Shown piece after piece: positions 2,505 to 56,355 of a stretch of DNA of 64,000 nt. The stretch comes from Arctopsyche grandis (Eukaryota; Arthropoda; Insecta; Trichoptera; Hydropsychidae), in assembly GCF_051622035.1 (NCBI RefSeq), contig NC_135355.1, forward strand, positions 41,829,486 to 41,893,485. The letters run 5' to 3'. The translations under genes and the position numbers were made by a program. Below the pieces are notes generated by a model. It saw only the letters and a list, made by a program, of their open reading frames with translations. It did no database searches and was not told the origin of the DNA. Numbering within the stretch: the stretch's first letter is position 1; every line of letters begins with the position of its first letter.

Positions 2505-3347
2505 TAAACTAATGTAATTAAATATATTACTAAGAGTTTTGGGCCGCCTAGGTACGTACATATGTGATAATCTAAAAGCGGCCCAATTTATTTGCCTTAC
2601 TTATTGTGCATAAATAATGTATATATATTAAAATTGGTTTTCCAATCATCAATATTAAAAGAAGGTGAGAAGAAAACGCATATATATAATAGACAGACTA
2701 CTACAATTTCCACGATTGACAATTCATAATAAATAATTAATAATTTTAAATATACGTAATGAATATAAATTATCATGAATACATAACAAATATAAATCAG
2801 TTAGTAATTTATACTACATGTGTATTGTAGATTGCAAAACACAATGAAATATAAACAATAATAACAAGACAACAAACAAGCAATACAATAAATAATAAAT
2901 AATTTATTAATCAAGTTCCAGAAATAAACCAATTTATATTACACATTTTCATATAATAAAAATACTGTGTGAAGTGTGTGAAGCTAGGGCTTCCAAGCCG
3001 GTTTAAACCGAAACCAAAAAGCCGGCTTTTTGACCATTTTAAAAAAAACCGAAAACCGGCTTTTTGGCTCGATCAACCGGCTTTTTAAGGTTTACTTTAA
3101 TTAATGCTTTTTTCCTCAAAATTAACAATTATGAATCTTAAATTTCTATGAAAGATCAAAATAAATGTGTATAAACGCTCTTAGGTAATAGCCAATAGGC
3201 GTGTATTTCTTTGAACAAAAAAAAAGCTACATTCCTTTTTTTCTTGAGCGGTTTCTTTGAGATTTAGTAAAGGAACAGGTCATAAACTAATGTAATTAAA
3301 TATATTACTAAGAGTTTTGGGCCGCCTAGGTACGTATGTGATGATCT
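2505..3347. repeat. Direct repeat pair flanking ~700 bp
   Basis: A segment of about 53 bp (2,505-2,557) recurs almost identically at 3,283-3,335. Both copies contain TTTTGGGCCGCCTAGGTACG. The first copy continues into a small palindrome, GGGCCGC ... GCGGCCC (2,541-2,585). The second runs directly into the tRNA-like head of the SINE at 3,348. One copy lies outside and one inside the hAT-like element that starts at 2,984. Confidence 0.7.
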
Positions 3348-4637
3348 AGCCAGCAGCGTGGCTCAGTAGTTAAGCTTCTGCTTAACACTGAGAGGCGCCG
3401 AGTTCGATCCCTTGAGCTGACCTCGATTGAAAAGAATTTTTCTGAGTATATCTGTAATGCTGCTGGTCAGACCAGGATTTGTGACTCCTGGTTGATCGTT
3501 TCCTATCAGAGTTTGCCAATTTTCTCTGATTTCATTGTTGAAACGATTCCCGATTAAAAATTGGCTAAAAATCCTTCCTACCCACTATGTCACCACTATT
3601 TGAGTATGATTAATGTAAATATTACAATAAAAATGTATGTACAATTCATAGATGTCTCGTTAATTGTCGAGTTTAAGTCAGTGTCTCGTAATTTAGCGAC
3701 TTATATAATAAAAAAAAAATGCTGTATTGTTTGTAATTTGGCCAGGAAGGCGCATTGGGGTTTACCTGTAATGCCTTCCTGGTATGAAATAAAAATAAAT
3801 AAAAAATAAATAAACCAATAAAATATTATTGAAAGTATGTAGTTTCAATGACCTACCCAACTTCAGGTATAGAAAGCATCCTTATCTATCGCAAATCCTT
3901 GTACTTGAAAACATCAAAAAAAGTAGTCAAATGATTTATGGCAAAATGCATAGGAATTTCCGAAATATAATTGATTTTTCTTCGAAGGAATTGCCCTTTA
4001 AATATTGAGGCCACATACCTACTTTTATTATGGATTTAAAATGTTCGTAATCAAATGAATTTGCCGTTTCAAATGAATTTGTTTCCGAAATTTGCAACGG
4101 TTGCTTTTGGATTTTTTAAGCTAAAACAGATGCGTAAAAACAACTTTGAAATCACTTTTTCTATAATATGTCTTTGAATCTCAGCAGCTCTTAATATTAA
4201 GTTCACGATTCCACAATTATAGTTTTTCTGAGAGGTTACACATTATTTTTTAAATAATATATTCTTGATAGTAACTTATTTAAATCATTTAATTATATGT
4301 GCGTATTTAGGATCTGCCATTTTACGACTGTGATATATGTACATATAATACAAATTGTATTATTTGTAATATTTGTAATAATAATATAAAGTAATGATCT
4401 TATGAAAGTTCATAATGTTTATAACTTAATTTAATTTATAAAAAACTATCTTTTTGCATAATATAGATATATATTATGCAAATATATACATATTTACATT
4501 TTTTTTTCGATATAAAAATTTTAAACTTAAAAAAATCGTATTTTTCTAAAACCGGTGAAAGCCGGCCAACTGGCTTTTTATTTGTAAAAAAACCGAAAAC
4601 CGGCTTTTTATTTTGGGCGGTTTTTTGGAACCCCTAG
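2984..4637. mobile_element. Non-autonomous hAT-like element with CCGGCTTTTT subterminal repeats
   Basis: Ends CTAGGGCTTCCAA (left) and TTGGAACCCCTAG (right) are inverted repeats with one mismatch. Flanks GTGTGAAG and GTGTGAAA look like an 8-bp target duplication with one change, as expected for hAT. Repeated CCGGCTTTTT words cluster inside both ends (about 3,020-3,090 and 4,560-4,610), a pattern typical of transposase-binding subterminal repeats. No transposase ORF is visible; the interior contains a SINE (3,348-3,813). Confidence 0.6.
3348..3813 (+). mobile_element. tRNA-derived SINE with CR1-like LINE tail
   Basis: The head has pol III internal promoter boxes: A box TGGCTCAGTAGTTAAGC (3,359-3,375) and B box GTTCGATCC (3,402-3,410), spaced as in tRNA genes. 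The anticodon arm cannot be assigned, so this is a tRNA-like SINE head and not a tRNA gene. The body ends in a stem-loop (3,741-3,783) followed by an AAATAAA-rich tail. The last ~45 bp plus the tail match the 3' end of the CR1-like LINE at 25,579-25,670, which implies mobilisation by that LINE family. The SINE sits inside the hAT-like element at 2,984-4,637. Confidence 0.8.
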
Positions 4638-12082: not shown

Positions 12083-12545
12083 AACAGTTGGTCCGATCTG
12101 TTTTTTAGTTTATTGTATTCGATGGAGCTCTTTGAATACCTTTCCATTTGAAAATTGATATATTCCCTAAATGAAACTTGCAATTCGGTAGTTTTTGAGT
12201 TGGGTCGGAAAAATGAGGTGAACGTAATTACTGTTGACTTTAATTCGCTTTTATTTGCCTTGGGAATGGATTGAATTTTTTCATTATCGTATAAAATTTA
12301 ATTTGTGGGATGTGTCACGAGATGCTTCATCTCCTGTCACCGACGCACAACAGATCGGAACAGTTAGCGAACGAGCTTAACTTTTCGACCTGTTCAACAT
12401 TTGGAAAGAGTCATCTTAACCGGGATGTGGGTTTATTAATGTGTTGATTTAAATAGGATGTTACTTTGAAACGGCCTTTAATTCGTTTTTAAAATTGCAC
12501 ATCTGTGTGAATTTGCGTTCAATGTGGGCTCATAGATGTGCAATT

Positions 12546-12640
12546 TTTATTTTATTTTATTTATTTATTTATTAATAGTTTTGGACCATTGTGGCATTAC
12601 AGGAAGAACCTAACGCCACAATGGCCTAAAATTTTAAAGT
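12546..12640 (-). mobile_element. 5'-truncated LINE/SINE 3' tail, minus strand, unit A
   Basis: On the minus strand a stem-loop with arms GCCATTGTGGC and GCCACAATGGT (12,585-12,625) is followed by an A-rich AATAAATAAAATAAAAT tail. The layout and loop (ending CCTGTAAT) are those of the SINE and CR1-like LINE tails at 3,741 and 25,579, with a different stem sequence. Copies are present at 20,355-20,460 and 43,235-43,335. Unit C lacks it. Confidence 0.7.
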
Positions 12641-19905: not shown

Positions 19906-22699
19906 AACAGTTGGTCCGATCTGTTTTTTAGTTTATTGTATTCGATGGAGCTCTTTGGTTACCGTTTCAATTGAATATTGATATATTCCCTAAATGAAAC
20001 TTGCAATTCGGTAGTTTTTGAGTTGGGTCGGAAAAATGAGGTGAACGTAATTACTGTTGACTTTAATTCGCTTTTATTTGCCTTGGGAATGGATTGATTT
20101 TTTTCATTATCGTATAAAGTTTAATTTGTGGGACGTGTCAGGAGATGTATCATCTCCTGTCACCGACGCACAACAGATCGGAACAGTTAGCGAACGAGCT
20201 TAACTTTTCGACCTGTTCAACATTTGGAAAGAGTCATCTTAACCGGGATGAGGGCTTATTAATGTGTTGATTTAAATAGGATGTTACTTTGAAACAGCCT
20301 TTAATTCGTTTTTAAAATTGCACATCTGTGTGAATTTGCGTTCAATGTGGGCTCATAGATGTGCAATTTTTATTTTATTTTATTTATTTATTTATTAATA
20401 GTTTTGGACCATTGTGGCATTACAGGAAGAACCTAACGCCACAATGGCCTAAAATTTTAAAGTTATCTTCCCAAATTTAACGGATTTGAAGGGACTACTC
20501 TGGTTACCATCAGTACGGGTAAGGGCCGGGCCGCACCGTGCAACTTTGTCGGCCGACTAGTCGCGCGACACGAAAAAATGTATGGAAATGTGTACGAAAA
20601 ACAAGTTGATGGGTGTGGCATGTCCCATCTACCTGCATGCATTGGTCTGGTCGCCCTCAACCAAGTTGTTCACGAGTTGAGCGGTGAGGCCTGGCCCTTA
20701 GAAAAGAACTTGTATATCCACTTTTCTGCTCTAGTTTTCTCTTCACGCTCATGTTTGTACCGCCCGGAGCAGACATATCAAGTGCGATTGAGAAAAATCT
20801 ATATTGAAGTTTGGGCGGCAACCGGTCATAATTGAATACACTCTATGTTAGTTTTGTATGCTGTTTGTCATCGAGGAAAATTTTCTCAAAGTTACCCCCA
20901 TCCGATGTCTTATAGCGAAATTCTGCTCCCAATTAACATAGAATGCACTCACCCTTCTTCGGGAGAGCTAAGATTGCCGCCCACTTGAATAATTCTTTAT
21001 AGCTGCTCTTTCGACCGTTTCCATCCCTTCATCTTTTTCGCGTGAGAGGTATGGGTATTCGGGATGATACCGTTGCTAGCTTGTCACAGTAATGCACACA
21101 TGTATTCGCCATATTTTTTCGATTACAACTCGTAAACACACTGACTACCATAACATGGGTATTATTACATCGTGGCGAGTTTTAAATTCTTGCCATTTTC
21201 TGCGAATGTCTGCTTAGAATATACATATATTAGACATATTTAATATATTGTATATAATAATTATATAATGTCTGCTGAGAATGTACATATATTATACTTG
21301 GGCTATTTCTAGTATGTAATGAATGTCTATTTAAACATCATGTGTACTTGTCGGTGCCTTTTATTAATTCTTTAGTAAAGAGGTATCATTTCTTTAGTAT
21401 AAGCTTTTGTGTAACGCAAAATTGTTAGTATATGTTGTTGATTAAGTTTCTTGAAACGTACATACATTGGTTTGAACATACTATGTGAATATACCATCAT
21501 TTATAAAAAATAATAAAAAAATTAAAAAATTATTTTGATTTTGTTTCAATTTTATTATTACCTCACAATTGTACATTTCGTCATTGTGATTTTGATGAAG
21601 ATTTATAACTGATTAGATCTGAATAAATGCCTCCATCAGAATCTGGACCTACTTGGAATAAACATGGTCGGCTTTAAGTTGTAACTTCAAAAAAACCCAT
21701 GGTGAGAATGAATACGTATTTTAAACAATACTTGAGATCTGGATTTCGGCCGGAATGTCTGATATAGTAATTGTGATTCCGTATCCCGATATGCAATCTG
21801 TAATTCCCGATTCGTAGAGAAATTCTTAAATCGATCTTATGACAGACATTATTAATATAATTGCAAATTTTGAATGCTTGCTTAGTAAGAACGGGACACT
21901 GAGAATTTTAAAGAGGCGTATAGCGTTCTCAGATTTATTCGAAAACATATAAAAACTAAATTTATTAATGGAGATAATCTAAAACGAATTTATCAACATG
22001 GGATGATTCATTGTTTGCATCATTTATTTATTTTTTCATTTGGACTTTGATATTTATATTAATTTTGCTTTCCGGTCTTACTTACTGTTTCTTAAATTAT
22101 TTTTCACATTTGCTGTGCATGTAAAAATACATTTTTAGCTTGACTTGAATAATAATACTTATTATTATTAAGTTTCGTACCAAAATGCACTCATATAAAT
22201 TTAAAACAAAAAGTATATTTTTACTATAGATGTCACTTTATAATAATTATTATAATTTAATTATTGAAATTATTTCATCAGAATTATCATTAATTATAAT
22301 TTCAAAGTTTCAATGAAAATTCATTGTACTTTTTACGTTTTGTATATGTTACAGTAAGAGTGCAAATCTCGAATCAGTATACATGACATGTAAGTGTATG
22401 CACCATCAAAATCACCCAGTAACAGTAGGTATACACGGGAGAATGAATGAACACGATTAGTAGTAGATTCATACACTAGCTATCCGTACGCAGTAAATGT
22501 TTACGAAAAGAATAAGAAGTTGACATGCTTAACAAGTATATAGTTGGCTTTTGGCGGATTAAACTACAAACTGAAAGAATACGACATTATTTCGAAGAAC
22601 ATATAATTAATGAACAAAATAAAATGTAACCTAACCTAACCTTGCCAGAAACCGACGGTAATACAGATGTACATAATTGTAATCGTTGGCTTTTTAGCT
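19906..22699. repeat. Z block of unit B
   Basis: Nearly colinear with 12,083-14,742. It contains the LINE/SINE tail (20,355-20,460, hairpin 20,408-20,448) and the Harbinger-like MITE (20,518-20,701). From about 22,490 it includes a stretch missing in unit A (CGCAGTAAATGTTTACG ...) that is shared with unit E at 56,465. It leads directly into the jockey-like LINE. Confidence 0.75.
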
Positions 22700-23052: not shown

Positions 23053-23613
23053 TTAATGCCTTGTCCGCATCCGGACGTTGGCGACCACCTCGTCGATTAT
23101 TTGAATATATCCGCATCGGTCTTCAGCGGCTCGGAACAACTCTTTGGCGCTCATATCGGTCCACATGCGCATGTTTCGAAGCCAAGATAACTTTTTCCTG
23201 CCAATCCATTTTTTTCCTTCTATTTTCCCCATGGTTATCAAACGGAGAAATTCGGATTTTGGACCCCGTATCATGTGTCCGAGGTACTCCATCTTTCTCC
23301 GCTTGATGACAGAAACAAGTTCCCTGCCTCTCCCCATCATGCCGAGGACAGCTTCGTTTGATATCTTTTTGGTCCACGGAATCTTCAGCATACGCCTATA
23401 GACCCACATCTCAAAAGCTTCAATGCGGCTGATCATTTTGGTTTTCAGAGTCCACGTCTCACATCCGTGTAGTAATACTGTCCAGACGTAGCTCTTCGCG
23501 AATCTCAACCGCGTATGAAGATTGAGATGCTTGTTTGTAAGCGCCGCCTTCATTTTTACAAATGCTGTTCTAGCCATCTCGATGCGGATTCTTAGATCTT
23601 CATCTGGGTCCAT
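23053..23613 (-). pseudogene. LINE reverse transcriptase, thumb and C-terminal part
   Basis: 186-aa open segment with RFAKSYVWTVLLHGCETWTL, FEMWVYRRMLKIPW and KMEYLGHMIRG, the standard C-terminal signature of endonuclease-reverse-transcriptase LINEs. On the minus strand the upstream DNA to 23,832 continues it (NLKKTKFMIVDRMQTE) with one stop at the RV*RFKYL position. Belongs to the antisense LINE. Confidence 0.85.
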
Positions 23614-23901
23614 CTCTTCATTCAGCCAGGTACACAGGTATTTGAATCTTTATACTCTTTCTATCAACTCTCCATCCAAGGTTAGATTCCCGGTTTCTGT
23701 TTGCATTCTATCTACTATCATAAATTTTGTCTTCTTTAGATTTATGCGCAGACCTCTTCGATTGCTTTCTTGATGTACACGGTCTAGAGATCTTTGCAGG
23801 TCTGCTAAATTTTCAGCGACTAGTGCCGTGTCATCAGTATTTTGTATTTTCAGTATTTTGTATTATCAGAATTTGTATTTTCGGTTATCAATAGTTTCAC
23901 A

Positions 23902-24738
23902 ATGTCTCGTTTTGAGTGCATTTACAGACTGTGTGACTCAATCAAAGATGTTCTATCTGGGGGAAATCTCCTTTCCAATTCCAGGATTTCTGATATATTG
24001 GTTGCCACCTCTCAAATTGTCACGGTCGCACGTTAGGAAGAGGAAGCGCATAACTCTCAGCGACTGATTGACCTCAAGCTAGCAATTGATGGTCTGGTGG
24101 AGGATTCGCGTGAGTTCAAGATATTCTTCGCAGATTCCTTACGTGCCCTGACTGCTCAAATGGAGGCTGTAAGGATGGTTTCTACTTTGTCTCCGACCCG
24201 TGCTCCACCTGCAGCGGCGCGGCCGGCCGATCAGGGCATAAGCAAACGTAAACGCCGTAACAACGTGTCAAAGAGCGCTTTGTTGTCCCGTCCAGACTTA
24301 GCTGCTTTTCTTGCTGCCGCTTCTCCTAAGACTGCTGTTCCTGCGGCCGTTCATAATGGAGCGTCGCATTCCAGCTTTCCATTAACTTCTCCATCACCTG
24401 CGCCAACTCCTGCACCACGGAAGGCTTCTCTGATAGATGCAGTTTCTAAGTCTCCAATTCAGTCTCAACGGTCTCAGAGGCAGTCTTTCATCCGTTGCTC
24501 GGGTATTGAAGATGAGCATCTAAAAGCTGTCTCTGATAAACGTTTTATTCATTTTAGGAAGTTGGGACGAATTGATCAGAACTTCACAGTTCAATCACTA
24601 TCAGCTAGGGGCAGTTATGCTTCATTCAAAATAGGAGTCTGCACAGCTGACTTTTCTGTGGTTTTTGATCCTGCTTTTTGGCCGCGGGGAGTCGGGTTGC
24701 GTCGGTGGCTTTTTCGGAAGACAAAGGCCGCAATTTAA
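23902..24738 (+). pseudogene. CR1-like LINE ORF1 with one internal stop
   Basis: Starts MSRFECIYRLCDSIKDVL, has one TAG at 24,034-24,036, then continues in the same frame to 24,738. The middle is a low-complexity Pro/Ala/Ser linker. The C-terminal part (SYASFKIGVCTADFSVVFDPAFWPRGVGLRRW, listed here only by its ends SYASFKI and FWPRGV) matches the esterase-less RNA-binding domain at the end of CR1/L2-type ORF1 proteins. It would bind element RNA. About 278 codons, near the usual length. Retired by the stop and by loss of ORF2. Confidence 0.72.
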
Positions 24739-25266
24739 TAAGACCCGAAAGGAACGGGCGTGCCTTTGTGAGTCCTTAAATATTTACTAGCAAAATGTAA
24801 AGGGACTTAATTCAAAGACCGACATTTGTTTATCTGCCGTTCTTGCTCAAGATCATGACTTAATTGCTTTTCTGAAACTTGGATTTGCGATTCTGTCTTA
24901 AATGGCGAACTTTTCGATGACCGCTATTTAGTTTTTCGGAGGGATCGTTGCAGCAGAGGCGGGGGGGTACTTCTCACTGTACGAGCTGCTAGTTTTCAAT
25001 CTGTTCGCCTTTTTGATCAGCTCAATACCATCGGTGAACATATTTGGGTTGAACTTCGCTTAAAGAATTTTTCTATTTTAATATGTGTACTGTATTTTCC
25101 TCCGAATTATAAATTCATTTTTTTTTCAAATTTGCAAAATAATTTTAATGCTTTGGCTGGCAGGAAAGTCATGATCTTGGGTGATTTTAATCCTAGGAGT
25201 TTGAATTTTGTTCCTAATGAATTAATTTTTATGTCAGAACTATTTAATATGAGTCAATTGAACTCA

Positions 25267-25355
25267 ATAACTAATTGTAATGATTTATGTGTTTATGTGT
25301 ATATGCATGTATAATGTTTGTATGTATATGGATGTATGTATTGTATGTGTATGTG

Positions 25356-25406
<51 letters not shown>

Positions 25407-25560
25407 GTATGTATATGTGAATATATATATGAATATATATATGTGTAGGTGTGTATGTATGTATATGTATATATGTGAATTTTTATATTTATGTATGTAT
25501 GAATGTGTACTTGTGTATACGTGGAAGTATTTGTGTATATTTGAATGGTGTACATATATG
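25267..25560. repeat. TG/TA microsatellite
   Basis: Alternating TGTATG and (AT)n, including about 50 bp of pure AT at 25,360-25,400. It replaces the reverse transcriptase region of the CR1-like LINE. Confidence 0.9.
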
Positions 25561-25849
25561 TTTATATAATTGTCTTTGGCCAGGAAGGCGCATTGGGTTT
25601 ACCTGTTAGGCCTTCTTGGTGTAAATTAAATAAAAAAATAAATAAACTAAATAAAAAAATAAAAAAATAAATCAGCATATCTTATATTGGTGATCGTCTC
25701 GCCGCCCACCTTGATGCCCTCCGCCTCTTGGAGAGCATCGTGGAAGATGGATTCGGTGTAGGTGTTAAAAAGAGTAGGTGATAGGATGCATCCTTGCCTG
25801 ACGCCCCGTTCTATAGGAATCTCATCAGTGAATTGATCATCGACACGTA

Positions 25850-27331
25850 CTACTGAATGTTTTTTCTGAATGATCCTGTTGCTTCTTTTAGTTTTTTATG
25901 TACTTTAAATTCGTCGTGTTTTTCTTGTAATTTTTCAATTTCGTTACATTTATTTTCCATCCATTTTTCTTTGATTTCTTTAATTTTCCTTTGAATTTGG
26001 CGGTGAATATTTTTATATTGTGTTGGATTATTATGTTTGTGTTTCCTGCGTTCTTCCATTAAATGTATAATTTCATCCGTCATCCAAGGTTGTTTTTTAT
26101 TAATTATTTGATTTGTTTCAAGAAACTTTTTCCCAGATTGGGTCATTGCTGATTTCATACCTTCCCACTTCCCACTTAAGTTTACATTACTATTTTCTTC
26201 AATACATTTTTGTTGAGATCTTTTGTTAATTGTTCGTGGATCGTAAGATTTTTAAGCAGCTCTAAATCCAATCTTGGTTTAGGTTTTGATGCTCTTAAAA
26301 TCTTTTTCAGTCTTATCTTCAATTTCCCACAAAGTAGATTATGATCGGATGCCACGTCTGCACCAGGGTAGGTTTTCACCGATTTTATACTATTTTTAAA
26401 TCTACTGTTTATCAAAATAAAGTCAATTTGGTTTCGCACAATATTATCAGGACAGTCCATCGGGGATTTCCATGTGTATAATCTTCTTTTAGGTAGCTTA
26501 AAGAAAGTATTCAAGATAACATACTGCTCTTCCTGGCAAAACTGAACTAGTCTGTCTCCTCTCTCATTTCTTTCTCCAAGTCCGAAGCGACCAATTATAT
26601 CCATTGTTTCTTCGTCTCCAACTTTGGCGTTGAAATCTCCCATTATAATGTTAACATCATGTTTTTTCGTATATGTCATCAATTCTTTGATTTGTTGATA
26701 AAATTCTTCAATCTCATTTTCTTCTTTATCGAAAGTGGGGGCATACACTTGTATTATGTTAACATTTATAGGTTTTCCTGCTAATTGTATCATCATGACT
26801 CGTTCAGATAACGGAATAAAGTTTCTCACACTTTTACTGATGTCGTCTTCCAGAATCACAGCAACACCATTCTTATGAGTGCCGTCAAGCGATCCCGAGT
26901 AGTAAGTCGTATATCCATTGCAATGCATCGTTTTTCCTGCTCCAGGCCATCTAGCTTCGCTTATGCCGAGCATCTGTATTTGGTTTTTTTTTCATTTCTA
27001 TTTGCAGATTTTCAATTTTACCTGCTTGATACATGGTCCTAACGTTCCATGTACCAATTTTTCGTATGTTCACCACTTTGAGTCCGGGGATTCTTAGCAC
27101 CCCTGTCCCATTGAAGGGACGCCGGAGACTCGGGGCCGTGGTTTTAGGTTTTCTCTTCATGGTGGTTATACTAGGGATATGAGAGCACAGTAGTTTTCCC
27201 CAAACCTTCTGCTCCGCAGAATTCAAACCGATTGAGTGGCTGCCACGTCGCTTTGAACCTTCCATCTTTTGCCTTTTTAGTATATTGCATATACTTCCGC
27301 CGTGGATGGTACTGACAGAGCTGCTGCCCAC
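25850..27331 (-). pseudogene. Antisense LINE endonuclease and linker
   Basis: On the minus strand the endonuclease starts IGTWNVRTMYQAGKIENL (about 27,065), loses frame at a T-run near 26,985, and continues LGISEARWPG ... NVIIMGDFNAKVGDE ... FILINSRF ... ASDHNLLCGKLKIRLKK. The GDFNAKVG and SDHxL motifs are catalytic signatures of the AP-endonuclease-like domain. A linker with QPWMTDEIIHLMEERRKHKH follows to about 25,858. An ORF fragment further upstream (27,331-27,070) may be 5' untranslated or ORF1 remnant. Confidence 0.85.
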
Positions 27332-27349
27332 TGCCAGGGAATTTTTTAT

Positions 27350-28205
27350 GGAGTTTCCTTCTCTATGAAAGGTGTTACGGTACCTTTCAAAACCGGGTTG
27401 AGCTTTTGTTAAGCGGCGGCACTTACTCGCCGCTGACCTGAGACCGTCATAGTGTTGTGTGACATTTTATAGAGTGAAACTTACCACGGATTCACTCATC
27501 ACCACTCTTATCTCAGCGTTCCTTGTCCAGGACCACCATGTCGCCATGGCAGTTGACTACAAGAGTCGTTCCCCTATTTGCAACTTGGGGACCTGAGCGG
27601 TTGCATGGAGCTCTGCTCTGAGCTTAGTAATTACTCCGTGCGGACGGACGTGTGTTTCCATTTATGATATATTTACATATATTGACAGTTTAATCACAAT
27701 CATAATATTTATGAAATTAGTACCAAACAATAACGTTAACGTTGAGTACAAGTACCCAATATAGTAAATTATCAACATTAAATAAAATTCACACTCAATA
27801 TTAAATAATCAATTATGAAATAATTCAACATTGAAATATAAACCATTCAACACTCAATATTAAATATGAAATAATTCAACGTAAAATATTATCAATACTA
27901 TCATTAATAAATCAATCGACGTTAATAATAAATTATTATCAAAAGAAATGTGATCGAAATTATGTGGGTAATTATGTAAATATGAAAATATTATAAATTT
28001 AAATTCCATTTAAAAAATATATGAAATCAAGCATAGGTAATGATTCTGAATATGTACTAACTTGCGAGGCGCCAGAAGAGCTAAATACTCATCCCAGCAC
28101 CTCCTCTTTAGCTCCAATTTAACACAAAATTCTACATACTTATCGGGACAACACATAAACGCACGTCCGCACCGAGCTCGCTCAACCCGCGAAAGATAAA
28201 GAAAG
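27350..28205. other. 5' region of antisense LINE with AT-rich insert
   Basis: No coding potential. GTGCGGACGGACGTGTGTTT (about 27,638) and AAACGCACGTCCGCACCGAG (about 28,158) are imperfect inverted repeats flanking about 480 bp of AT-rich sequence, so a further small element may lie inside. Confidence 0.4.
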
Positions 28206-34886: not shown

Positions 34887-36937
34887 AACAGTTGGTCCGA
34901 TCTGTTTTTTAGTTTATTGTATTCGATGGAGCTCTTTGGATACCTTTCCATTTGAAGATTGATCTATTACCTAAATGAATCTTGTAATTCGGTAGTTTTG
35001 AGTTGGGTCGGAAAAATGAGGTGAACGTAATTACTGTTGACTTTAATTCGCTTTTATTTGCCTTGGGAATGGATTGAATTTTTTCATTATCGTATAAAAT
35101 TTAATTTGTGGGACGTGTCACGAGATGCTTCATCTCCTGTCACCGACGCACAACAGATCGAAACAGTTAGCGAACGAGCTTAACTTTTCGACCTGTTCAA
35201 CATTTGGAAAGAGTCATCTTAACTGGGACGTGGGTTTATTAATGTGTTGATTTAAATAGTATGTTACTTTGAAACAGTTTTTATTTCGTTTTTAAAATTG
35301 CACATCTGTATGATTTTGCGTTCCTGGTGGACTCATTGATGTGCATTTTTTTAAACCAATCTTCCCGAATTTAACGGATTTGAAGGGACTGCTCTGGGAC
35401 TGCTCAGTACGGGTAAACGAGAGCTTAGAAAAGAACATGTATATAAAACTTTTCTGCTCAAGTTTTCTCTTCACGGCTAATGTTTGTACTGCCTGGAGCA
35501 GACCTATCATGTGCGATTGAGAAAAATCTATATTGAAGTTTGGTCGGCAACCGGTCATAATTGAGTACCTTCTATGTTAGTTTTGTATGCTGTTTGTCAT
35601 CGAGGAAAATTGCAACCTCCAAGATATTCTACTCCCAATTAACATATAATGCACTCACCCTTCTTCGGGAGAGTTAAGATTGCCGCCCACTTGAATAATC
35701 CTTTATAGCTGCTCTTTCGACCGTTTCCACCCGTTCATCTTTTTCACGTGAGAGGTATGGGTATTCGGGATGATACCGTTGCTAGCTTGTCACAGTAATG
35801 CACACATGTATTCGCCATATTTTTTCGATTACAACTCGTAAACACACTGACTACCATAACATGAGTATTATTACATCGAGGCGAGTTTTAAATTCTTGCC
35901 ATTTCCTGCGAATGTCTTCTGAGACAATCCATATATTATACTTCGTTTATTTCTAGTATGTAATGAATGTCTATTTAAACATCATATTTCTGAGACAATA
36001 CTTATATTATACTTCGTTTATTTCTAGTATGTAATGAATGTCTATTTAAACATCATGTGTACTTGTCGGTGCCTTTTAATAATTCAAGAGGTGTAATTTC
36101 TTTAGTATAAGCGTTTGTTTCTGCAAGCTTTTGTATAACGCCAAATTGTTAGTATAGGTTGTTGATTAATTTAGATTGAACATACGTTGATCTTTACACA
36201 CAAGGTGAATATAACATAATAATATAACATCATTTATAAAAAATAATAAAAAAATTTGTCGATTAATTTTTATGTAACGTACATACATTGATTTCAACAT
36301 ACTATGTGAATATACCATCCTTTATAAAAAATAATAAAAAAATTAAAAAATTATTTTGATTTTGTTTCAATTTAATTATTACCTCACAATTGTACATTTC
36401 CTCATTTTGATTTTGATGAAGATTTATAACTGTTTAGATCTGAATAAATGCCTCCACCAGAATCTGGACCTACTTGGAATAAACATGGTCGGCTTTAAGT
36501 TGTAACATCTAAAAATCCCATGGTGAGAATGAATACGTATTTTAAACAATACTTGAGATATGGATTTCCCCCGGAATGTCTGATATAGTAATTGTGATTC
36601 CGTATCCCGATATGCAATCTGTATTTCCCGATTTGTAGAGAAATTCTTAAATCGATCTTATGACAGACATTATTAATATAATTGCAAATTTTGAATGCTT
36701 GCTTAGTAAGAACGGGATACTGAGAATTTTAAAGAGGCGTTCAGCGTTCTCAGATTTATTCGAAAGCATATAAAAATTAAATTTATTTATGGAGATAATC
36801 TAAAACGAATTTATCAATATGAGATGATGTATTGTTTGCATCATTTTATTTCTTTTTTAATTTAGACTTCGATATTTATATTAATTTCGCTGTCCGGTCT
36901 TACTTTATGATAATATTAGATAGAAGAAGTAGGCGTC
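34887..36937. repeat. Z block of unit C
   Basis: Shorter than in A/B: the LINE/SINE tail and Harbinger-like MITE are missing (junction at about 35,345-35,430, where a TGCTCTGGGACTGCTC mini-duplication sits). A segment of about 55 bp (TCTGAGACAATxCxTATATT ... ATTTAAACATCAT) is tandemly duplicated at 35,918-36,055. No gene. Confidence 0.7.
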
Positions 36938-38282: not shown

Positions 38283-38840
38283 ATTAACATTAGAATAAGA
38301 TAATACTATGATTACTATCAAAATTAAATTAAAATTGTAAAATCGAAATTATAAGCAGATCAGTAGCTATTAAAATATATATATATAAGATGTATTGCGA
38401 ACATAATTTAGTAATAATAAAAAGCATTTAAAAATCAAAAAAAAAAATCAAATACCTAAAAAAAATTGATTTTGATTTTTAAATGCTTTTTATTATTACG
38501 AAATTATGTTCATAATGCATCTTATATCTATTTTAATAGCTACTGATCTACTGATCATTTTCTATTTTACAATTTAATTTAATTTGGTTAGTAATCACAG
38601 TATTATATTATTCTAATGTTAATCTAAAGCATAATAGGAAAGAGCTCAAAAACCTATTTACAATCCTTATAAATGTTCTTAATACATCTAATACTATTAA
38701 AATTAAATTAAAATTGTAAAATCGAAATGATCAGCAGATCAGTAGCTATTAAAATATATATAAGATGTATTGCGAACATAATTTAGTAATAATAAAAAGC
38801 ATTTAAAAATCAAAAAAAAAATCAAATACCTAAAAAAAAT
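38283..38840. repeat. Foldback cluster: inverted ~160-bp arms plus a third arm
   Basis: About 38,285-38,452 and 38,466-38,622 are inverted copies of one AT-rich segment (end AACATTAGAAT / ATTCTAATGTT), and 38,693-38,840 is a further copy in the first orientation. Unit A has the segment once (6,053-6,240). The same cluster recurs at 46,300-46,690 and 50,118-50,690. Confidence 0.85.
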
Positions 38841-42774: not shown

Positions 42775-45014
42775 AACAGTTGGTCCGATCTGTTTTTTAG
42801 TTTATTGTATTCGATGGAGCTCTTTGGATACCTTTCCTATTGAACATTGATATATAACCTAAATGAAACTTGCAATTCGGTAGTTTTTGAGTTGGGTCGG
42901 AAAAATGAGGTGAACGTAATTACTGTTGACTTTAATTCGCTTTTATTTGCCTTGGGAATGGATTGAATTTTTTCATTATCGTATAAAATTTAATTTGTGG
43001 GACGTGTCAGGAGATGTTTCTATCTTCTGTCACCGACGCACAACAGATCGGAACAGTTAGCGAACGAGCTTAACTTTTCGACCTGTTCAACATTTGGAAA
43101 GAGTCATCTTAACCGGGATGAGGGCTTATTAATGTGTTGATTTAAATAGGATGTTACTTTGAAACAGCCTTTAATTCGTTTTTAAAATTGCACATCTGTG
43201 TGAATTTGCGTTCAATGTGGGCTCATACATAGATGTGCAATTTTTATTTTATTTTATTTATTTATTTATTAATAGTTTTGGACCATTGTGGCATTACAGG
43301 AAGAACCTAACGCCACAATGGCCTACAATTTTAAAGTTATCTTCCCGAATTTAACGGATTTGAAAGGACTACTCTTGTTTCCATCAGTACGGGTAAGGGC
43401 CGGGCCGCACCGTGCAACTTTGTCGGCCGACTAGTCGCGCGACACGAAAAAATGTATGGAAATGTGTACGAAAAACAAGTTGATGGGTGTGGCATGTCCC
43501 ATCTACCTGCATGCATTGGTCTGGTCGCCCTCAACCAAGTTGTTCACGAGTTGAGCGGTGAGGCCCGGCCCTTAGAAACTTGAATATCCACTATTAGAAC
43601 TTGTATATCCACTAATAGAACTTGTATATCCACTTTTCTGCTCAAGTTTTCTCTTCACCGCGCAAGTTTGTACCGCCCGGAGCAGACATATCAAGTGCGA
43701 TTGAGAAAAATCTATATTGAAGTTTGGGCGGCAACCGGTCATAATTGAGTACACTCTATGTTAGTTTTGTATGCTGTTTGTCATCGAGGAAAATTTTCTC
43801 AAAGTTACCCCCATCCGATGTCTTATAGCGAAATTCTGCTCCCAATTAACATAGAATGCACTCACCCTTCTTCGGGAGAGTTAAGATTGCCGCCCACTTG
43901 AATAATCCTTTATAGCTGCTCTTTCGACCGTTTCCATCCGTTCATCTTTTTCGCGTGAGAGGTATGGGTATTCGGGATGATACCGTTGCTAGCTTGTCAC
44001 AGTAATGCACACATGTATTCGCCATATTTTTTCGATTACAACTCGTAAACACACTGACTACCATAACATCGTATTATTACATCGAGGCGAGTTTTAAATT
44101 CTTGCCATTTTCTGCGAATATCTGCTGAGAATATACATATATTATACTTATATATAATAATTATATAATGTCCGCTGAGAATGTACATATATTATACTTG
44201 GGCTATTTCTAGTATGTAATGAATGTCTATTTAAACATCATGTGTACTTGTCGGTGCCTTTTACTAATTCTTTAGTAAAGAGGTATCATTTCTTTAGTAT
44301 AAGCTTTTGTGTAACGCCAAATTGTTAGTATAGGTTGTTGATTAATTTAGATTGAACATACGTTGATCTTTACATACAAGGTGAATATAACATATAATAA
44401 TATAATAATATAATATAACATCATTTATAAAAAATAAATTATTTTGATTTTGTTTCAATTTTATTATTACCTCACAATTTTACATTTCGTCATTATGATT
44501 TCGATGAAGATTTATAACTGTTTAGATCTGAATAAATGCCTCCACCAGAATCTGGACCTACTTGGAATAAACATGGTCGGCTTTAAGTTGTAACTTCTAA
44601 AATTCCCATGGTGAGAATGAATACGTATTTTAAACAATACTTGAGATCTGGATTTCCGCCGGAATGTCTGATATAGTAATTGTGATTCCGTATCCCGATA
44701 TGCAATCTGTAATTCCCGATTTGTAGAGAAATTCTTAAATCGATCTTATGACAGACATTATTAATATAATTGCAAATTTTGAATGCTTGCTTAGTAAGAA
44801 CGGGACACTGAGAATTTTATAGAGGCGTATAGCGTTCTCAGATTTATTCGAAAACATATAATAAATAAATTTATTTATGGAGATAATCTCAAACGAATTT
44901 ATCAACATGGGATGATGTATTGTTTGCATCATTTTATTTCTTTTTTCATTTGTACTTCGATATTTATATTAATTTTGCTGTCCGGTCTTACTTTATGATA
45001 ATATTAGATAGAAG
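42775..45014. repeat. Z block of unit D
   Basis: Contains the LINE/SINE tail (43,235-43,335, hairpin 43,282-43,322) and the Harbinger-like MITE (43,395-43,575), followed by a local triplication of ACTTGTATATCCACT (43,580-43,640). The remainder is AT-rich unit sequence. No gene. Confidence 0.75.
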
Positions 45015-46714
45015 AAGTAGGCGGATAACTAATTACAATGTGAAATCTTGAAAATTATTATTATATATTTTATTAAATTATTATATTTTTTGATTACTAA
45101 CCTCCTTTACGTTTCACACGGTCTTTGTTAAAGACGTCATTTTTTATATCTCTTATCTCTTATCCGATCGTTTTCATACTTTGCCATATTGCTCATTTTG
45201 GTCATCAATATAAGTTAAGATATCATCCGCCATTACGATGGTGAAAAAATATCGTATTGGACACGTTTGAAAATACTGCATCGTATTACAGGGTGACGTT
45301 TATCTGTCACATTCATCATTCACATCGGTAGTTTCATTACTTTTCGCCCTGCCATCTCGCTGTCAAATTTTAATTATTTAAACGCTTATAACTTTTTCTT
45401 TTTGTCATCGATGTCATCAAGAATAATATACTATTATAAGTTTCAAAACATTTTCCAGCCGGGCTGTCCACGTCGTCGCATTGAGTTATTATATTGCTAT
45501 ATACATATTTACTGAAGATCAATTCTATAATAGCTATTTCGAAAAAAGGGAAGGATGCAATATTTAAATGTTGTTGTCTATTCTGGTAAGTATAGATTTC
45601 GACCACTAATTTTAAGATATTCTAAATCTATTTACAGCCTGGACATAGTTTTTTCACAAACAAGCCTCTTCCATATTTTATATAAGAAATTATGACAATG
45701 TATAAATAATTTAATGAAATTCAGCCAAAATAATAATAAAAATAAAATTCTGTTACACTAAAAAGTATCAAATAAAAAAAACCGTAGTAAAAAAAACTTT
45801 TTTAAAAACAAACCTCCTTTTGGTTTTGTATATAATATTAAGATATGTTCCGACTTAATTTGACGTATAGCAATAAGCTGTTGGGTCAATGCATTTGTTA
45901 GATGGTAACACTGATGAATCGAGCACCGGAAGCATGAGTGCGTCGTCGTCAGAACGCGCTTGGCCTATTTCGATGACAATTGTGTCTGAGAATGGCGCGT
46001 GCTCATATTCCCCACGTGTAAATTTTCTATCTCAATAAATCTTCATCAAAACCAATTACCGAAGGCCACCAAGATATATAAAAAACTATAGTAAAAAAAC
46101 TATATTAAAAAAAACTCAAGTAAAATAAATGTATACAAAAAAATAATGTACTAAAATACAATAACTCTTTATAAAATAAAATAATTAAATAATAAATAAA
46201 ATAAAATAAATTTATTAAAATAAAAAGGCTATTTAAACAATATTTTAACAACTAATGTACAAATTTGTGGGATTAAAATCAAAATGATTTCAATGATTGC
46301 TGTACATATTAACATTAGAATAAGATAATACTATGATTACTATCAAAATTAAATTAAAATTGTAAAATTGAAATTATCAGCAGATCAGTAGATATTAAAA
46401 TATATATAAGATGTATTTCGAACATAATTTAGTAATAATAAAAAGCATTTAAAAATCAAAAGAAAAAATCAAATACCTAAAAAAAATTGATTTTGATTTT
46501 TAAATGCTTTTTATTATTACGAAATTATGTTCACAATACATCTTATATCTATTTTAATAGCTACTGATCTACTGATCATTTTCTATTTTACAATTTAATT
46601 TAATTTGGTTAGTAATCACAGTATTATATTATTCTAATGTTAATCTAAAGCATAATAGGAAAGAGCTCAAAAACCTATTTACAATCCTTATAAATGTTCT
46701 TAATACATCTAATA
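45015..46714. repeat. X block of unit E, left part
   Basis: Matches 36,938-38,690 with a deletion after CTTGAAAATTATT (about 45,058). It contains the 226-bp solo LTR (45,846-46,071, TSD AGATA at 45,841 and 46,072) and a foldback (about 46,300-46,690). It is interrupted at about 46,715 by an antisense LINE. Confidence 0.75.
45846..46071 (+). mobile_element. Solo LTR, 226 bp, TSD AGATA, unit E
   Basis: Paralogous copy of 37,822-38,047, with the same ends and the same AGATA flanks. It arrived by segmental duplication and not by a new insertion. Confidence 0.85.
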
Positions 46715-50112: not shown

Positions 50113-51137
50113 TTCTTATTACGCTGTACATATTAACATTAGAATAAGATAATACTATGATTACTATCAAAATTAAATTAAAATTGTAAAATCGAAATTA
50201 TAAGCAGATCAGTAGCTATTAAAATATATATATATATAAGATGTATTGCGAACATAATTTAGTAATAATAAAAAGCATTTAAAAATCAAAAAAAAAAAAT
50301 CAAATACCTAAAAAAAATTGATTTTGATTTTTAAATGCTTTTTATTATTACGAAATTATGTTCATAATGCATCTTATATCTATTTTAATAGCTACTGATC
50401 TACTGATCATTTTCTATTTTACAATTTAATTTAATTTGGTTAGTAATCACAGTATTATATTATTCTAATGTTAATCTAAAGCATAATAGGAAAGAGCTCA
50501 AAAACCTATTTACAATCCTTATAAATGTTCTTAATACATCTAATACTATTAAAATTAAATTAAAATTGTAAAATCGAAATGATCAGCAGATCAGTAGCTA
50601 TTAAAATATATATAAGATGTATTGCGAACATAATTTAGTAATAATAAAAAGCATTTAAAAATCAAAAAAAAAATCAAATACCTAAAAAAAATGGTAAGTG
50701 CTCATCGTACGAAATTTCTTCGCTGAATTCCATTTCTTCTTTCTACTTTATGAATATGATTTATAGTACCTAGGCTTTCAATGAATGTGGCACTTGACTT
50801 GCAATTCGAGTCGGCATGTCACAATCGACTATTAGTTTAATGTAAGTATACAATAGTTCCGAAAAAATTAATTGTGATTTGTATGTAATAAAAGGCTCGT
50901 TTCCGGTTTATAAAACTCGTTGATTATTAATTATTTATGTCATATTGATTGAAGGACTATTCGACATTATTTGACATACTGAGGTTAGGTAAATATGAAT
51001 TTAGGTATGCTCGTCGTTCGAAATCTTGATATTCGACCTACTCGAATACGAGTATGCTTCGGTATACTCGTATTCGGCGAATTGAATTAGGCGAATTTAC
51101 AGTGAATCGTATTCCTGCTTGTGTGAGTCCGCTTGTT
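50113..51137. repeat. X block of unit E, right part, with second foldback
   Basis: Resumes at TTATTACGCTGTACAT. The foldback arms lie at about 50,130-50,300 and 50,315-50,480 with a third arm at about 50,550-50,690, as in unit D. It then runs as 38,840-39,263 to the CCTGCTTGTG site, which is empty here and filled by the 1,427-bp element in unit D. The GGTATACTCG site at about 51,061 is the empty site for the hAT-like element of unit A. No gene. Confidence 0.75.
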
Positions 51138-55235: not shown

Positions 55236-56355
55236 TTTATTTAAATAGGCACACATACAGAATAAAATATAAAAAGAAAGTTGTATAATGAGACAAAAAA
55301 TAATAATAAACATAAATAAAAATATAATATTCCATTTACAGTGAGCACCACATGGTGATATAAAAAAGTAAAATTACAAAAACATCAAGATTTAAAAAAA
55401 AAGAAAAGAAACAGATAAAGAAAAAGATACAGATAAAGTAAAAAAGAAAAAGAAATACTATAAGGGTGAAGAAGCAAATCAAGCACATATTATTTTCTTC
55501 ACCTTTGTCCTAAAAATACTAAAAGAGTCACTAAAGAGGTCAGGACAATCATCTAAGCTATCGTAAATACGGCATATACGAACGATTGCACTATTGAAAG
55601 AGGTGTTGCTTTGACAAATTGGTGGATAAAAAAGATTTGTGCATCTGGTGAATCGGGCATTAACGTTAAAATTAATCTCGCTTAAAACAGATGTGTCAAG
55701 AATACCATTAGCAATCTTATATAAAATTAACAAATCAGAAACCCTTCTACGCTGAGACAAACTTGCAATATGGAAAAAAGAAAGTCTGTCATTATAAGAT
55801 GGTAACAGTTTTTTAAGACCAGTCTTATAGGATAAATGGCGCAAAAAACGCTTCTGGATTGTTTCTAAATGCTCAATGTGAGTTTGGTAATAGGGAGACC
55901 ATATGATTGAGGCATACTCCATATTACTACGAACTAAACTGTAATAGAGTAGAGTATGGGGATTCTTAAAGGGCTTCGCAACTCGGCAAATAAATCCCAA
56001 GAGTTTATAAGATTTAGTAACAATTTGATTCATATGTTCATTAAATGATAGTTTGGAATCTATAAGTATACCTAAGTCTCTGGCACAATTTTTTGCTTTT
56101 AGATCTACGTTATTAATATTGTAAGTAAAGTCAATTAGGTTACGATTTCTGGAAAGTGTCATTGAGAAGCATTTAGAAATATTGAGATGCATAAGGTTTA
56201 CATTACACCATTCAGATATTATATCAATGTCGGATTGTAATTTTAAGCAATCCGACTCACTAGTGATAGGATGGAAAACCTTAAGATCATCGGCATAAAG
56301 TCAGCATTGACACTTCAGTAGGGGGATTAGGTCATTAATAAAAATAATAAACAGA
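55236..56355 (-). mobile_element. 5'-truncated LINE inserted in unit E
   Basis: Units A and B have the unfilled sequence AATCAGTATACATGAC (14,570; 22,373). Here AATCAGTAT is followed by a T-rich tail (minus-strand poly(A)-like end), and ATTCATGAC resumes at about 56,357. The element keeps only the end of its reverse transcriptase, starting near YADDLKVFHPITSESD. Confidence 0.85.
55479..56305 (-). pseudogene. LINE reverse transcriptase C-terminal half
   Basis: On the minus strand YADDLKVFHPITSESDCLKL (about 56,300) leads in one frame into the 237-aa segment MHLNISKCFSMTLSRNRNLI ... KARDLGILIDSKL-like thumb (NCARDLGILIDSKLSFNEHM), SLVRSNMEYASIIWSPYYQT and IEHLETIQKRFLRHL, ending KVKKIICA. The pattern is that of jockey/CR1-group LINEs. 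The frame is open to its natural end, so the only lesion is the 5' truncation. This suggests a recent insertion. Confidence 0.87.

Follow-up and report, generated by a model that had tools for sequence, protein, structure and literature searches.

A LINE/SINE 3' hairpin with a conserved loop and covarying stems in the genome of Arctopsyche grandis

The SINE and the LINEs described here have a common 3' end, a hairpin with a conserved loop and a covarying stem; different LINE families have different stems, and one insertion of such a tail is accompanied by its empty site. We interpret the hairpin, with high confidence, as the 3' recognition element of a set of related non-LTR retrotransposons, shared by a probably tRNA-type SINE that took its 3' end from LINE family 1. 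On our best inference it would be the recognition site of the reverse transcriptase. The hairpin is best read as a stringent-type LINE/SINE 3' hairpin, a new member of a kind already known, and a series this varied within a single genome makes a good natural test of recognition.

Hairpin tails in the window

The window is the whole stretch of 64,000 nucleotides that was analysed, located on contig C1 of the host genome (475.7 Mb, 189 contigs). It contains hairpin tails of two stem versions, A and B, as well as a site lacking the B insertion:

3738-3786, plus strand: stem-loop version A of the SINE; AATAAA-rich tail downstream; fold -26.5 kcal/mol (z -4.5)
25576-25623, plus strand: stem-loop version A of the LINE; AATAAA-rich tail downstream; fold -22.2 kcal/mol (z -3.1)
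12582-12629, minus strand: stem-loop version B; insertion of a LINE-type 3' end on its own; fold z -6.7; (TAAA)n-type tail at about 12544-12577
20405-20452, minus strand: stem-loop version B, copied with the repeat unit; identical insertion event to 12582
43279-43325, minus strand: stem-loop version B, copied with the repeat unit; identical insertion event to 12582
35340-35360: empty site, repeat unit 3 (34-36 kb) without the B insertion, from multiple and pairwise alignment

The fold z values of the five tails are -4.5, -3.1, -6.7, -6.7 and -6.3, and for each tail none of 200 shuffles was equally stable. The outer stem of the SINE hairpin consists of 12 pairs and has a G-U at either end; above it stand a small internal loop, a 4-pair apical helix (UGGG/CCUG), absent from the initial annotation, and a loop of 5 nt. 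The stem and loop words that this annotation had placed in the window are present, and the SINE and the LINE end in one stem-loop as it had stated, except that the words given for the LINE copy, GCCTTCCTGGT and CCTGTAAT, actually read GCCTTCTTGGT and CCTGTTAG. The loop side CCTGTAATGCC is common to the SINE tail and the minus-strand B tails, and the stems differ. From version A to version B, each of the four middle pairs is altered on both sides (GC, GC, AU, AU to UA, UA, GC, UA), which bears out the claim that both stem sides changed together while the loop was kept.

Arm A has six one-mismatch matches in the window, four of them within the two A tails, a number that none of 100 shuffles reached; the six matches of arm B all lie inside the three B tails, and 2 of 100 shuffles likewise reach six. 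A covariance model built from the three distinct tails (filters off) recovers the five tails by construction, along with their antisense images, and beyond these it finds nothing below E 0.3 in the whole 64 kb. An Rfam scan of the window at the gathering score found no family. The alignment of the A and B loop sequences is bettered by only 6 of 20000 shuffles. Covariation in the window comprises four pairs altered on both sides, a number reached by 5 of 500 shuffles, and random changes at four plus four positions retain all pairs with a probability of 3.8e-4, or 0.039 when the positions are taken as given. The covariation statistics of the window are modest, and the genome copies carry the case.

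The tails near 12,585, 20,408 and 43,282 do possess the second stem attributed to them by the initial annotation, but they are copies of one insertion and not three events. The repeat unit in which they lie occurs five times (about 8,200-54,700) at spacings of about 7.8, 15, 8 and 10 kb. All three B tails occupy one point of this unit: units 1, 2 and 4 are filled, unit 3 has the empty site, and unit 5 (53 kb) is rearranged at the insertion point. Independence of the three B tails is accordingly rejected in favour of a single insertion copied inside the larger repeat. B therefore entered once, which leaves the window with three tails that are independent and a single event of covariation. The insertion consists of the 3' end only and is truncated directly before the stem; truncation to the 3' end is often left by target-primed reverse transcription. 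In the genome, 40 matches of the B tail were scored of 445 candidates, on contigs C1, C3, C4 and C6-C13.

The insertions and rearrangements of the repeat units date each other. An imperfect inverted repeat, read by eye as TTGCACATCTGTG ... CATAGATGTGCAA, adjoins the B insertion (12495-12543 and copies) and possibly reflects either a target preference or chance. Clusters of inverted repeats are also found at 38283-38839, 46308-46644 and 50132-50691, with arms of about 60-154 nt that are 84-95% complementary.

Stem versions and the elements that carry them

The DNA read amounts to 364 kb, including the window and loci L063-L120, and a quarter of it was picked for SINE tails. The loci comprise 30 stretches of 3 kb at SINE-tail matches, 20 evenly spaced samples of 10 kb and eight small stretches. 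The 200 kb of even samples contain 16 sense-strand tails at E <=0.01 (model R2), or about one per 12.5 kb, a count that leaves out antisense images and includes six tails that are themselves members of model R2. By extrapolation from these 200 kb we estimate tens of thousands of hairpin tails genome-wide. The 364 kb contain seven versions of the stem, combined with one apical motif; they are listed here by their 5' arms together with one remnant:

Version A, CCAGGAAGGC: SINE and LINE family 1
Version B, CCATTGTGGC: window, L094:6314 and L103:1187; L102:7025 with one change
Version C, TCACAGTGAC: L089:650
Version D, CCGGTGTGAC: L088:1433; variants L094:2254 and L089:2865
Version E, CTATAGTGAC: L099:2734
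Version F, CCACAGTGTC: L114 and L116
Version G, TACACTCGTC: L110:8915; variant L101:7600 (E 0.064)
Remnant H, CCATAGTGAC: L095:7909 (E 0.03), no apical part

The 3' arm complements the 5' arm in every version, the exceptions being one mismatch in E, one mismatch in the F copy L114 and two absent bases in the F copy L116. The apical motif is roughly UNGR-loop-YCUGUNA, with UCUAUAA in version E.

Two LINE families with long open frames end in the hairpin. Family 1 ends in stem A (L113 and L115, the latter fetched as a possible further LINE end and found to be family 1 again). Of the 150 genome matches of its endonuclease (EN) piece that were scored from 1384 candidates, 13 lie in an open frame of 979 aa; the EN is at 93% to the window copy, and the reverse transcriptase (RT) matches RVT_1 at E 7e-28. 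Family 2 ends in stem F (L114, and L116 as a more broken copy assigned by its 3' region), with 14 scored matches in an open frame of 965 aa, and is at 52% (EN) and 59% (RT) to family 1. A third LINE, L103 on the minus strand, carries stem B. Its RT frame (1489-2808) has an open frame of 439 aa, with RVT_1 at E 4e-24 and 44% to the family 1 RT, and tail B starts at 1234, 254 nt past the stop at 1489. The LINE with the second stem version that the initial annotation had anticipated is thereby at hand, and the third tail, for which an unrelated origin had been considered, belongs to a related element. The loop interior of L103 is AATT as against TTCTT in the window B tail, so L103 counts as a relative and is at most a candidate source of that tail.

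Remnants of an ORF2 C-terminus stand ahead of stem E (L099) and of remnant H (L095). In the 364 kb read no LINE is tied to versions C, D and G, and two loci fetched as candidate LINE ends (L117 and L118) bear no tail. Pfam gives RVT_1 only for the RTs of these LINEs, and the label 'CR1-like' is a guess.

The SINE and the family 1 copy of the window are composed as follows:

3340-3830, plus strand: SINE, limits approximate and by eye; apparent tRNA-like head, body and LINE-shared 3' tail
3359-3369, plus strand: A-box-like word TGGCTCAGTAG, read by eye
3401-3411, plus strand: B-box-like word AGTTCGATCCC, read by eye
23838-25670, plus strand: LINE family 1 copy, internally deleted, without RT; flanks GTGTCATCAG / ATCAGCATATC
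23833-23837, plus strand: possible target-site duplication ATCAG, left; by eye, 5 bp only
25671-25675, plus strand: possible target-site duplication ATCAG, right; by eye, 5 bp only
23902-24738, plus strand: ORF1-like frame of the LINE, interrupted by a stop codon at 24034-24036
24859-25314, plus strand: endonuclease portion of ORF2, which extends into the junction of the deletion; PF14529 matches weakly (E 0.029, short of the curated cut-off)

The SINE words TGGCTCAGTAG and AGTTCGATCCC were named after the A-box and B-box consensus; ARAGORN found no tRNA gene in the window. The final 87 nt or so of the SINE align with the LINE at 85% (E 1e-20), and the remaining matches between the two are short (best E 0.026). 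This is the composition of a stringent-type pair: the 3' end is common to SINE and LINE and the body is not, and a LINE with EN (weak by Pfam) and RT ends in the shared hairpin. Genome matches of the SINE 3' end were scored for 40 of 1055 first-look candidates. By script, no target-site duplication of at least 9 bp was detected for the SINE and no exact one of at least 7 bp for the LINE copy.

The LINE copy passes from the ORF1-like frame, of which 24037-24738 has no Pfam match, through the first endonuclease part, and then jumps to the 3' untranslated region. The internal deletion is deduced from comparison with L113, an intact family 1 3' end, whose 3' region is microsatellite-rich and hairpin-bearing like that of the window copy. 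Among the 150 scored EN matches, 25 span residues 3 to 151, of which 15 are located on C2 at 31-34 Mb. The EN residues after 143 appear to lie past the deletion junction, because the matches in long open frames end there; with 25 scored matches extending past the apparent junction, the deleted form (ORF1, part of EN and 3' tail, no RT) therefore looks multi-copy.

Covariation and its possible causes

In the alignment with one copy per version (7 rows), 111 of 119 cells pair, and 10 of 17 pairs as well as 25 cells are altered on both sides; the versions are partly alike and therefore do not represent seven independent draws. None of 5000 shuffles, which like all the shuffle controls ignore the relatedness of the rows, reaches the observed number of paired cells, two-sided pairs or two-sided cells, and only 35-54 paired cells remain when the partners are slid by 1-3 columns. 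The apical pair (columns 24/30) swaps G-C and A-U.

Larger sets, chosen by the analyst and mostly obtained with models that reward pairing, were compared with shuffles that ignore the relatedness of the copies. Among 13 copies picked from those then known, 91.4% of the cells pair, with 33 two-sided cells against 10.3 in shuffles (0/500) and 8 two-sided pairs against 5.2 (4/500); 'further pair types' are not raised, as 468 of 500 shuffles reach the value. In a set of 27 copies, picked from model searches and LINE ends, 83.7% of the cells pair as aligned and 60 two-sided cells stand against 20.0 in shuffles (0/500); the number of two-sided pairs was reached in 51 of 500 shuffles and that of further types, not raised, in 60 of 500. 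After one misplaced MAFFT gap was removed by hand in the two rows of version G, the 27 copies have 68 two-sided cells (0/5000) and 10 such pairs (63/5000). Left out of this set are copies that repeat the SINE tail exactly (L063-L092, L104), antisense matches, two of the window's three B tails, L115 (its hairpin equals that of L113), the remnant L095, and three A copies that are poor or truncated (L091:2040, L097:295 and L097:9763).

A search with the loop words only, in which the arms were ignored, gave 59 matches in the 364 kb, or 25 distinct loops once identical contexts were merged. Of these 25, 20 form 8 or more of the 10 arm pairs and 13 form all 10; the first of these numbers fell to a mean of 7.2 (maximum 15 in 2000 rounds) when the arms were re-dealt among the matches, and 13.7% of random places reach 8 arm pairs as the best of 18 registers. 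The remaining five are two truncated tails (A and F) and three loops that look like chance. The search recovers versions A, B, C, D, F and G, while E mismatches the loop words on which it was based. Independently of the pairing models, version F was moreover found at the end of a LINE that was reached via its protein. Chance as a source of the hairpins is ruled out by the shuffle folds, the seven-version covariation and the arm-blind search. The compensatory changes among genome copies in the 364-kb sample thus exceed the controls, and the selected RNA structure proposed in the initial annotation is well supported by the seven-version covariation and by the contrast within and between versions given below.

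Two processes could leave paired arms without selection for an RNA structure. Descent from one ancestral hairpin whose arms are as yet undecayed would accord with the pairs common to all seven versions (G13-C40 and C15-G38). However, columns 9/44 and 10/43 present GC, CG, AU and UA among the same seven versions, and versions G and A have just 2 of 10 core pairs in common, the other 8 being altered on both sides with all of them still pairing, which contradicts shared descent as the sole cause and renders it extremely improbable. Template switching at a DNA palindrome, by contrast, rewrites one arm from the other and so restores pairing; multi-base compensations of this origin are described in part of PMC8794818, and the four altered pairs of the window are contiguous, as a single switch would leave them. 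Such switching should repair dead copies too. Yet within versions (25 copies of five versions, compared with their own consensus over ten core pairs) 38 of 39 altered cells are one-sided and 1 is two-sided, and 17 of the 38 break the pair. Between versions, 89 of 112 altered cells are two-sided and paired; the 112 cells come from comparing seven rows two by two (21 comparisons) and are hence not independent. It is thus the copy-producing lineages that maintain pairing, and not the copies themselves. As template switching also leaves the conserved apical loop and the link to LINE 3' ends unexplained, we consider it a very unlikely explanation, which may nevertheless have supplied part of the raw changes.

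A selected hairpin might also act outside reverse transcription, in stability, nuclear export or transcription end, and its position at the very 3' end, adjoining A-rich sequence, would suit such a role. Against this, the hairpin occurs in LINEs as well as in a SINE that is presumably of Pol III origin, and the LINEs with ends of this sort that have been tested require it for retrotransposition, as reported in parts of PMC4176376 and PMC5135761. We regard a function of this kind as highly improbable and favour recognition by the reverse transcriptase. The LINE protein would then bind its RNA through the terminal hairpin, bring the (TAAA)n-type end to the nicked target and begin reverse transcription at that point, and a SINE with an identical hairpin would be copied by the same protein. 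Shape and apical motif would remain constant and the stem would only have to pair, so that its sequence could shift by paired changes as LINE families diverge. Evolution has preserved pairing more than stem sequence.

It is conceivable, though unlikely, that owing to the conserved loop each of these LINE proteins could in principle use every one of the tails and that the stem is a family mark, perhaps one that sheds SINE parasites or rival LINEs. If so, the genome would contain a natural stem-swap experiment, in which cross-mobilisation is legible from insertion histories.

Known hairpins and neighbouring elements

The closest functional parallel comes from the zebrafish LINEs ZfL2-1 and ZfL2-2 (L2 clade). 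In the relevant part of PMC4176376, the loop of their 3' stem-loop is recognised and needed, and the stem can be replaced by another one that pairs; stem changes did lower retrotransposition in UnaL2. The same pattern, a conserved loop on a free but pairing stem, is found here at the level of sequence, with at least seven stems that bear one loop motif across several families, whereas two LINEs with their own loops were tested in zebrafish. The hairpin of plant L1-clade LINEs and SINEs is similar in its shared 3' end, its variable stem with compensatory changes and its conserved loop nucleotides, but belongs to a different LINE group and has a different loop (part of PMC3747384). The stringent-type pairs covered in part of PMC5135761 (turtle CR1/SINE, eel UnaL2, silkworm SART1, bivalve SINEs with CR1-clade LINEs) likewise involve a SINE that takes the 3' end of its partner, with a hairpin near the end; they differ in the particular sequence, and the terminal repeat of our elements is of the TAAA type. 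Among insects, the lepidopteran SINE PxSE5 shares its 3' tail with PxLINE1, but the word 'stem' is absent from the main text of PMC8010984, and the part of it considered here describes neither a hairpin nor covariation.

According to part of PMC5135761, the choice of RNA by LINEs and its hijacking by SINEs have been tested in a handful of elements. A. grandis offers at least seven stems on one loop motif, together with two LINE families that have many long open frames, so that the notion of a loop that is read and a stem that is only shaped can be tested by comparison of families and by simple swaps.

The hairpin pattern has 62 matches in virus and prokaryote collections (2 and 60), none of which is followed by a TAAA-type tail, and we take them as chance. 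In viral contigs the tail-anchored pattern has 0 matches and two protein scans gave no relative. Six sequence words of the two hairpins are unmatched in the paper texts searched, which is weak evidence as such sequences mostly stand in figures or supplements.

By eye, the family 1 copy of the window sits within the antisense RT gene of another LINE (23053-27466, minus strand), inserted in the ADDT stretch of the RT; the EN part of this antisense LINE matches PF14529 at E 2e-9. A second RT fragment of a LINE is located at 55479-56300 on the minus strand and has 39% identity to family 1 over 148 aa. Its 3' end, at about 55,350, shows by eye a weak CCAT/ATGG hairpin with CACTGTAA, which is absent from the model reports and is perhaps a more distant tail.
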